From: Roseivirga seohaensis
Lineage (GTDB): Bacteria > Bacteroidota > Bacteroidia > Cytophagales > Cyclobacteriaceae
NCBI RefSeq assembly: GCF_001592945.1
Contig: NZ_LRPB01000006.1
Span: forward strand, 186,001 to 250,000
DNA length: 64,000 bases
Direction of reading: 5' to 3'
Shown: in pieces, positions 671 through 4,161 of the stretch
Layout of the letters: each line of letters starts with the position of its first letter
How positions within the stretch are numbered: position 1 is the first letter of the stretch
Notes under the pieces: generated by a model
Seen by the model: the letters and a program-made list of their open reading frames with translations, nothing else
What the model was told of the DNA's origin: nothing
The model's database searches: none
Made by a program: the position numbers and the translations under genes

Positions 671-748
671 ATGTTAGCAGCAAGGACATCATTTTATTAC
701 TTTTTTTACTTTAGAACCCACTCGGGATCGAGCCTGCGCTATCATTAA
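671..748 (+). CDS. Phe/Tyr-rich leader peptide of an aromatic-biosynthesis attenuator
   Basis: A 25-codon frame from ATG 671 to TAA 746-748 encodes a short peptide with the run FYYFFYF at codons 8-14 (692-712). Seven consecutive Phe and Tyr codons in so short a frame, directly upstream of a terminator and of the first shikimate-pathway gene, are the hallmark of leader peptides such as E. coli pheL. Ribosome stalling here would report shortage of charged Phe or Tyr tRNA. There is no strong Shine-Dalgarno sequence, as is usual in Bacteroidota. The composition and position make chance unlikely. Confidence 0.85.
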   Translation: MLAARTSFYYFFYFRTHSGSSLRYH

Positions 749-772
749 ATGAAATTGTAAAAATATTTTATT

Positions 773-804
773 AGCCCGGTTCGAAAGAGTCGGGCTTTTT
801 TTTT
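773..804 (+). terminator. Intrinsic terminator of the aromatic attenuator
   Basis: A 6-bp GC-rich stem, AGCCCG (773-778) with CGGGCT (791-796), is followed by a run of T (797-804). It sits only 14 bases before the DAHP synthase start, so it would block the operon unless it is bypassed. UCGGG at 722-726, inside the leader reading frame, can pair with CCCGG at 775-779 and remove the 5' arm of the stem, giving a plausible antiterminator. CUCG/CGAG (721-732) can form a competing local hairpin. Confidence 0.85.
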
Positions 805-2946: not shown

Positions 2947-4161
2947 TTGGACACTATTCACCTTAAACACTCACCCCAACTTAGAGAAGTAGAAATTCCA
3001 CTTCCTGCTTCTAAAAGTGAGAGCAATAGGGCCTTAATCATTAATGCACTTTCGGGCAATATTTCTGAAATCCAAAACTTATCAGAGGCCAGAGATACGC
3101 AGACGATGATTCGGTTATTGGCAAGCAAAGAAGAAACACTCGATGTTTTAGATGCTGGAACCACCATGCGATTTCTCACTGCCTTTTCTGTTTTGGGTGA
3201 AAGCTCAAGAATACTTACAGGCACAGAAAGAATGCAGCAGCGTCCGATAAAGATTTTAGCAGATGCACTCAAAAGCATTGGGGCCAAGGTGAAGTTTTTA
3301 AAAGAAGAAGGCTTTCCTCCACTCAAGGTAAAACCGATCAAAGAACAGAAATCCAATCGGATTAAGATGAAGGGCGATGTAAGCAGTCAATTTATATCGG
3401 CTGTATTAATGATTGCCCCATGTTTGCCACAAGGGCTTAGCTTAGAATTAAAAGGGAAAATCGGTTCTCGCCCTTATATCCAAATGACTTTGGACATGAT
3501 GAAGCTTTTTGGAATTCATTCCAACTGGACCAACCAAACCATTGAAATTAAGCCACAACAATACAAAGATTATCCATATGTAGTAGAATCCGATTGGTCG
3601 GGTGCAAGCTATTGGTATAGCTTTGTGGCCTTGGCCGATGAAGCCAAAATCAAATTGAAAGGACTCAGGCAAAAATCGCTTCAGGGCGACATTGCCATTG
3701 TGCATATGATGAACCAACTGGGTGTAATGAGTACTTTCGAAGCCGATGGTGTAGTGCTTCAGAAAATTCCTCATTCTAATGAAGTGAATTTTGACTTCAG
3801 CGATTGCCCAGATTTAGCCCAAACCATAGCCGTTGTGTGTGCGGCAAAGAAAATACAATGCACCATGACGGGCTTAGAAAGCTTGGTCATCAAAGAAACC
3901 AACCGAGTAAAAGCCCTAAAAAAGGAATTGAAAAAATTTAAGGTCAAGCTAAAAGAAGTAGCACCAGAGGTATTTGAGCTTCGGTCGAAATTCGAATTGA
4001 GTGATGAGCCGATCGAGATTGAAACCTATGACGACCATAGGATGGCCATGGCCTTTGCTCCCCTGTGTACTTTACAAGATATCATCATCAAAGCCCCCAG
4101 CGTAGTCAACAAATCATACCCTGGTTTTTGGAAAGACATTGAATTGGCAACAGGTCGGTGA
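2947..4161 (+). CDS. aroA: 3-phosphoshikimate 1-carboxyvinyltransferase (EPSP synthase)
   Basis: The 404-residue enzyme transfers enolpyruvyl from PEP to shikimate 3-phosphate. Substrate motifs are PASKSESNRAL (20-30, with Lys23), GTTMRFLTA (71-79), QRPIKIL, DVSSQFISA and DDHRMAMAF. The predicted start is TTG, two bases after the aroB stop, with no nearby in-frame ATG. The position equal to E. coli Pro101 is Phe76, and Asn94 is replaced by Asp69. Changes at Pro101 are known to lower glyphosate binding, so natural tolerance is possible but untested. Last gene of the attenuator-controlled operon. Confidence 0.95.
   Translation: MDTIHLKHSPQLREVEIPLPASKSESNRALIINALSGNISEIQNLSEARDTQTMIRLLASKEETLDVLDAGTTMRFLTAFSVLGESSRILTGTERMQQRPIKILADALKSIGAKVKFLKEEGFPPLKVKPIKEQKSNRIKMKGDVSSQFISAVLMIAPCLPQGLSLELKGKIGSRPYIQMTLDMMKLFGIHSNWTNQTIEIKPQQYKDYPYVVESDWSGASYWYSFVALADEAKIKLKGLRQKSLQGDIAIVHMMNQLGVMSTFEADGVVLQKIPHSNEVNFDFSDCPDLAQTIAVVCAAKKIQCTMTGLESLVIKETNRVKALKKELKKFKVKLKEVAPEVFELRSKFELSDEPIEIETYDDHRMAMAFAPLCTLQDIIIKAPSVVNKSYPGFWKDIELATGR

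Follow-up and report, generated by a model that had tools for sequence, protein, structure and literature searches.

Near one end of the window (the whole 64 kb stretch of Roseivirga seohaensis DNA that was analysed, G000:C6:186001-250000), a short reading frame rich in Phe and Tyr codons and a hairpin stand directly before a DAHP synthase operon, which raises the question of how transcription of this operon is controlled. A first-pass annotation had proposed an attenuator of the pheL/trpL design, and comparison with related genomes strongly supports that proposal, the design being conserved with compensatory changes. Our main reading, to which we give a probability of about 0.92, is that a ribosome-mediated transcription attenuator controls DAHP synthase-aroB-aroA.

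Anatomy of the locus

The elements of the locus, numbered from the first base of the window, are the following:

636-641, + strand: possible -33 element, T-rich, weak in the window, assigned by eye from upstream sequences
659-666, + strand: putative -7 box for sigma-A, TAAGTTTA, separated by 4 nt from the start of the leader (consensus in Bacteroidota, TAnnTTTG)
671, + strand: predicted transcription start, the A of the leader AUG, from the box spacing and the box position in Flavobacterium psychrophilum
671-748, + strand: leader ORF of 25 codons, MLAARTSFYYFFYFRTHSGSSLRYH, in the frame read from ATG 671 and kept in relatives
675-690, + strand: arm 1, a possible partner of the 3' part of arm 2 (putative protector hairpin, from folding, with weak statistics)
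692-712, + strand: sensor run of seven Phe/Tyr codons, TTT TAT TAC TTT TTT TAC TTT
728-741, + strand: arm 2, the 5' strand of the antiterminator, core UCGAGCC at 728-734 (folding, shuffles, covariation)
772-784, + strand: arm 3, common to antiterminator and terminator, core GGUUCGA at 778-784
773-804, + strand: intrinsic terminator, in which 773-782 pair with 787-796 around a loop at 783-786, with a T tract running to 804
819-1913, + strand: DAHP synthase-chorismate mutase fusion (PF00793, PF01817), first gene under the proposed control
1910-2944, + strand: aroB, 3-dehydroquinate synthase (PF01761, PF24621), overlapping the stop of the DAHP synthase gene
2947-4161, + strand: aroA, EPSP synthase (PF00275)

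This anatomy of leader ORF, Phe/Tyr run, terminator and DAHP synthase operon is confirmed. Translation of the leader places its stop codon at 746-748 and reads codons 8-14 as F Y Y F F Y F, at 692-712 where the first-pass annotation had put the Phe/Tyr run. The terminator that it had placed 14 bases before the DAHP synthase ATG is also there: a stem of ten pairs (773-796), with T's running on to 804, begins 24 nt past the leader stop and ends 14 nt short of the ATG at 819. The short leader ORF is rich in codons for the end product of the operon, the intrinsic terminator sits between this ORF and the first gene, and an antiterminator that excludes the terminator lies downstream of the sensor codons. 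Pfam bears out the gene order annotated as aroF-aroB-aroA, giving DAHP synthase-chorismate mutase, aroB and aroA. The NCBIfam matches of the fusion protein lie under the curated cut-offs, and the window's DAHP synthase is 99% identical to that of Roseivirga ehrenbergii (L005).

A second DAHP synthase-chorismate mutase lies upstream of the leader (L091:8984-10081, of which only the last 81 bases are inside the window), and a prephenate dehydratase domain, at 74-616, stands between this paralog and the leader. The paralog does not lie behind the Phe/Tyr leader, which counts against the attenuator model. The 180-aa prephenate dehydratase, for which Pfam gives a PDT domain only and no ACT domain, is the sole pheA match of the genome; the paralog and the divergent gene preceding it are 49 nt apart.

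The Phe/Tyr run by itself was rejected as evidence, since genome-wide matches show that it is not rare: the genome, 4.15 Mb in size, contains the [Phe/Tyr]7 pattern six times, at four places, and the reversed pattern 14 times. The folding energy of the whole leader region is likewise ordinary (z -0.87). The element stands out from chance because leader and terminator are conserved in relatives and because the antiterminator covaries (see below).

The promoter assignment rests on spacing. In 58/58 scanned DAHP synthase leaders (the window and 57 loci), as well as in L034, the gap between an upstream TAnnTTT[GA] box and the start is exactly 4 nt; the start-picking script favoured starts near a 4-nt gap, but the starts nonetheless agree in the alignment. 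Furthermore, the leaders of L010 and L012 begin with GTG where others have ATG, which supports the assigned leader start. In many relatives TTTTG or TTTG can be seen by eye about 19 nt ahead of the -7 box, and a generic sigma-70 promoter scan gave no match at the leader. The sigma-A box of F. psychrophilum is reported at -12 to -5 (PMC9723704), which, together with the 4-nt gap, would make the A of the leader AUG position +1. The DAHP synthase leader mRNA is probably leaderless, a class reported to make up 5.5% of mRNAs in F. psychrophilum (PMC9723704); 5'-UTRs shorter than 10 nt are given as about 3.7% in Bacteroides (PMC7366714). Among 25 leaders before other genes, the strict box occurs in nine, 8-24 nt (once 50 nt) upstream of the start, and in none of the other 16; with a looser box, two leaders of family f16 (L132, L139) show gaps of 5 and 4.

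Conservation and pairing of the leader arms

The leader with its terminator is present in 58 of the 59 near loci (L005-L063, from Roseivirga, Algoriphagus and kin), 57 of them by the standard scan plus L034, and the remaining one, L061, begins at a contig edge; the order DAHP synthase-aroB-aroA is kept in 59/59. Comparison of these Cytophagales leaders, along the lines suggested at the first pass, gives a recurring aromatic-rich leader in the same 58 loci, with compensatory changes in arms 2 and 3 of the aligned leaders. The run reads FYYFFYF in the window and YFYFFYF, YYYFFYF or FFYFFYF in other Roseivirga, that is, with F/Y swaps; YFTFFYFYF is common in Algoriphagus, and Trp is present in six near-locus leaders. 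FFYFYF is retained in 46 of the 47 Algoriphagus-type leaders scanned, a set not selected for this motif, and the exception (L048) has lost codons. Across these six codons in the 46 leaders, all 20 minority choices between TTT and TTC or between TAT and TAC are synonymous. In a related element before DAHP synthase (L222) the aromatic run is broken by a frame change. At greater distance, none of 21 DAHP synthase loci (L064-L084) has an aromatic ORF plus a strong terminator upstream; three of them (L066, L070 and L081) have an aromatic ORF 274-436 nt upstream of the gene without a strong terminator.

The mixed run bears on which amino acid is read. We infer that both Phe and Tyr are sensed. An attenuator that senses mainly Phe, with the Tyr codons as near-neutral filler, is unlikely but carries some weight, since the Phe-Tyr-Phe leader aroR of Corynebacterium, the closest of the studied cases, is reported to answer limitation for Phe and not for Tyr (PMC11802643). 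However, the run retains two to four Tyr in the window and in L005-L014 even as F and Y change places, and the related leaders of phenylalanine hydroxylase genes are Tyr runs with few or no Phe codons; these Tyr runs indicate that Tyr codons probably serve as sensors in this group.

Covariation was measured in an alignment of 30 non-redundant leaders, with 210 cells and 500 shuffles. Arm 2 and arm 3 (728-734 with 778-784) pair in 98.1% of the cells, double changes fill 17 cells versus 4.9 after shuffling, and the covariation score is 0.313 versus 0.161; no shuffle out of 500 reaches any of these three values. When the partner is shifted by 1-3 columns, pairing falls to at most 54.3%. The double changes fall in three of the seven pairs (784, U-A to G-C; 783, C-G to U-A and A-U; 779, U-A to C-G), and two of them, at 783 and 784, fall within the loop of the terminator, so that their covariation speaks for the antiterminator alone. 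Neither the count of doubly changed pairs (3) nor that of further pair types (6) is out of the ordinary, since 156 and 162 of the 500 shuffles, respectively, reach them. The terminator stem pairs in 98.9% of the alignment cells. When only the 11 distinct arm pairs are counted, 72/77 positions pair, a value reached by 2/2000 shuffles. When the set is widened to 83 leaders (58 before DAHP synthase, 5 from regions of the order sample and 20 from the 60 pheA regions described below), the pairing of arms 2 and 3 is matched by at most 2/200 shuffles in 72, and arm 2 begins 3-14 nt beyond the run in 45 of the 46 rows inspected, the exception (L163) beginning before the end of the run. A swap control with 31 arms gives weaker support than the shuffle tests: a leader's own arm 2 is the best partner in 11/31 cases and among the top three in 17, and that of L013 ranks 23rd.

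The antiterminator strand proposed in the first-pass annotation was a different one, UCGGG at 722-726. It can pair with 775-779 (duplex -6.4 kcal/mol), but UCGGG occurs past the run in 2/58 DAHP synthase leaders, those of the window and L005; the pairing of 722-726 with 775-779 is therefore not the conserved antiterminator, whose conserved strand is 728-741. A protector hairpin of arm 1 with arm 2 is plausible but weak: at most 10/200 shuffles match it in just 20/83 leaders, and 49.7% of the cells are paired, yet its covariation score beats 500 shuffles.

These results weigh against a simpler account, in which the hairpin merely terminates the upstream operon of DAHP synthase paralog and prephenate dehydratase, whose stop is at 616, and T-rich sequence has given rise to the aromatic ORF incidentally. 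The region is indeed AT-rich, with Phe/Tyr runs elsewhere in the genome as counted above, and the hairpin would also end read-through from upstream. We nevertheless regard this account as highly improbable. A promoter-like box and the leader stand between 616 and 773, and leader and terminator are kept in 48 of the 49 loci L015-L063, which have no upstream prephenate dehydratase match (L061 is again the contig edge). Moreover, the aromatic residues are kept while synonymous codons vary, the covariation of arms 2 and 3 lies partly outside the terminator stem, and reverse-strand controls gave 0/60 pheA regions and 3/40 DAHP synthase regions, the latter all weaker runs with 5 of 8 aromatics. An action of the leader on translation, through reinitiation at or coupling to DAHP synthase instead of through transcription, is just as improbable. 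Gene-proximal leaders may help reinitiation in Bacteroidetes, with a reported peak at 11-14 nt (PMC4833913), but here 70 nt and a strong terminator separate the leader stop from the DAHP synthase start, and the covarying pairing aims at the terminator arm and not at that start. That the leader RNA is instead a T-box, a riboswitch or a protein-bound element is barely credible: any 5' terminator could be so controlled, but the element is mostly coding, with the codon run among its best-kept parts, and an Rfam search at gathering threshold gave four tRNAs only in the 64 kb window, with no match to a T-box or to any described leader, all sub-threshold matches on the element being far under their cut-offs.

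Folding and the proposed switch

RNA folding with a simulated ribosome agrees with ribosome-mediated attenuation. In the window, the terminator has a probability of 0.13 with the ribosome on the first Phe codon and of 0.96 with the ribosome at the stop. In the 83 leaders, as long as arm 4 has yet to be transcribed, the median probability that arm 3 is sequestered is 0.80 with a stalled ribosome versus 0.07 with the ribosome at the stop, and the difference exceeds 0.3 in 83/83. Arm 3 is sequestered in ribosome-free nascent RNA too (median 0.79); untranslated transcripts may thus read through, unlike in the textbook trp case. At full-length equilibrium, the drop in the terminator on stalling exceeds 0.3 in just 17/83 leaders, which implies that most leaders would need kinetic control. 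Additionally, in the rows inspected of Algoriphagus-type leaders, the stop codon ends 36-39 nt past the point where arm 2 begins, so that a ribosome positioned at the stop would not cover the whole of arm 2.

The proposed switch would work as follows. Transcription would start at, or adjoining, the leader AUG, and a ribosome would trail the polymerase through the 25 codons. When charged tRNA-Phe or tRNA-Tyr is scarce, this ribosome would stall in the run at 692-712, leaving arm 2 (728-741) free to pair with arm 3 (772-784) before arm 4 exists; with this antiterminator formed, the terminator could not fold and DAHP synthase-aroB-aroA would be transcribed. When both amino acids are plentiful, the ribosome would reach the stop and cover arm 2, the terminator at 773-804 would form, and a transcript of about 134 nt would be released. 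Most likely, then, the operon is switched on when the ribosome is short of Phe/Tyr.

Related leaders and known systems

Phe/Tyr leaders extend beyond the near loci. A DAHP synthase sample from the order comprised 40 upstream regions chosen from matches, 39 of them usable (L116 has 86 nt), and the leader stands in nine regions, four before DAHP synthase and five before pheA-aat-tyrA-DAHP synthase; a tenth match (L099) is weak and was discounted. In a pheA sample of 60 upstream regions across families, also chosen from matches, 25 combine a terminator with an aromatic leader (5 of 8), including two doubtful cases far from the gene (L136 and L159), and a stricter filter (6 of 8 within 420 nt) retains 20. 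By the 5-of-8 criterion, 13/17 pheA regions of the same class outside the order are positive. A covariance model built from the leaders has matches at E 0.001 in 139/295 genomes of the family, most of them counted by match alone. Seventeen weaker or second model matches were fetched, and 15 have an aromatic leader ORF: five before DAHP synthase, eight before phenylalanine hydroxylase, one before aat-tyrA and one before pheA. Another of the 17, L220, has no leader. Two tandem Phe/Tyr leaders with terminators are seen in 4/7 pheA regions (L118, L119, L148 and L149) of family f13, which may be Hymenobacteraceae.

The same genome carries a second leader outside the window (G000:C45:1501-1629, minus strand, MLHSSAHHYYYYYPNDRNGSAM), followed by a terminator, whose run AHHYYYYY has His codons and then poly-Tyr. 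This second attenuator spans 555-701 of L211 on the reverse strand (G000:C45:1500-1646), and similar ones occur in Roseivirga relatives. The gene behind it matches phenylalanine 4-monooxygenase (NF008877, 270.3 bits, cut-off 247; TIGR01267 just under its cut-off), and the next gene is HisH (TIGR01855, 210.7 bits, cut-off 105.4). Folding of the full-length second leader still favours the terminator with a stalled ribosome; it too would therefore need kinetic control. A search for prephenate dehydrogenase (PF02153) found none in this genome, which is 99.94% complete, whereas 14/14 control genomes gave PF02153; it is therefore likely that this organism obtains its tyrosine from phenylalanine through the hydroxylase.

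Of 48 hydroxylase regions, 36 were picked from 84 genomes with a match and 12 by model match; a leader is present in 21 of the 48, including 9/36 of those not preselected. The run contains His in 11/11 cases with hisH downstream versus 2/10 without it (L214 and L241; Fisher p 0.0002), a test in which 12/21 leaders were preselected by model match, the species are related with relatedness uncorrected, and hisH was sought only in the fetched stretch; among the nine not preselected, the figures are 6/6 versus 1/3. Where aat-tyrA follows the hydroxylase (L215, L264 and L265), the run is seven Tyr. Arms 2 and 3 of the hydroxylase leaders pass the level of 10/200 shuffles in 15/21. We think it somewhat more likely than not that these elements form a retunable family of leaderless or near-leaderless attenuators in Cytophagales, in which codons would follow the operon product: mixed Phe/Tyr for DAHP synthase and pheA operons, mainly Tyr for phenylalanine hydroxylase, in some cases with aat-tyrA, and interleaved Tyr and His for phenylalanine hydroxylase-hisH. 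As part of this same reading, the window's organism would make tyrosine through the hydroxylase under a Tyr/His attenuator.

Other amino acid leaders of the genome, all outside the window, were located in L197, L198 and L199. A Trp leader, MRNTNLHSAWWWHLTELS, stands before trpE with a terminator; a His leader, MLKNTHIASTTAPHVHHFHHLS, stands before hisG, where no clear intrinsic terminator was found; and ilvD and an ilvE-like frame, the latter identified by eye, are preceded by two Ile/Val leaders in tandem, which have terminators. No leader was found in the genome before homoserine dehydrogenase. The His, Trp and Ile/Val leaders make up an apparent attenuation regulon.

Classical attenuation depends on a ribosome that follows closely on the polymerase. 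The mRNAs of this phylum are reported to be without Shine-Dalgarno sequences (PMC9723704, PMC7366714), and yet such switches appear to be numerous in it, some with a start apparently at the AUG or a few nt from it, which would let transcription-translation coupling and leaderless initiation be tested directly. Sister leaders with Phe/Tyr, Tyr, and Tyr plus His codons are natural examples for testing the rule from codon to signal.

Attenuation itself is of a classical, known kind. In E. coli, attenuators control pheA or pheST and answer to Phe only, with a leader behind an ordinary 5'-UTR, and an attenuator at aroR-aroF of Corynebacterium glutamicum was reportedly described by Neshat et al. in 2014. 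Like E. coli pheL-pheA and pheST, as described in PMC11802643, the present system has a Phe-rich leader, mutually exclusive hairpins and a terminator before the operon; against the Rfam model RF01859 Phe_leader, the window element scores 18.1 bits (E 1), well under the gathering cut-off of 55 bits. The C. glutamicum system also has an aromatic leader peptide ahead of a DAHP synthase operon, and ribosome stalling on it is reported to raise transcription (PMC11802643, PMC4046766). That system is actinobacterial, with three aromatic codons versus seven or eight here and a reported lack of effect of Tyr supply, and the likeness is one of design as described. The trpL/rnTrpL transcript of Sinorhizobium meliloti is reported to start with the leader ATG (PMC7298713), a feature that is promoter-predicted here; that leader is a Trp leader of an alphaproteobacterium, whereas the window's is Phe/Tyr.

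The closest precedent within the phylum is F. psychrophilum, for which 'strong clues' of leader-peptide attenuation ahead of amino acid operons are reported, with conserved 5' elements before pheA and hisG that have no Rfam match (PMC9723704). This organism belongs to another family, and the first gene differs; the comparison is by description, which gives no codon content, arms or covariation. The first-pass view that little is described in this phylum thus needs qualifying for Flavobacterium. For Cytophagales, no Phe/Tyr or Tyr/His leader was found in the open-access main texts searched, with queries that did not single out hydroxylase leaders; the main text of a premature-terminator survey (PMC2965389) contains neither phenylalanine nor pheA or aroF. 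Attenuation is therefore already suspected in print for Flavobacterium, and what is new to us are the Cytophagales DAHP synthase members with their covariation, the fixed spacing between promoter and AUG, and the Tyr and Tyr/His sisters before hydroxylase genes.
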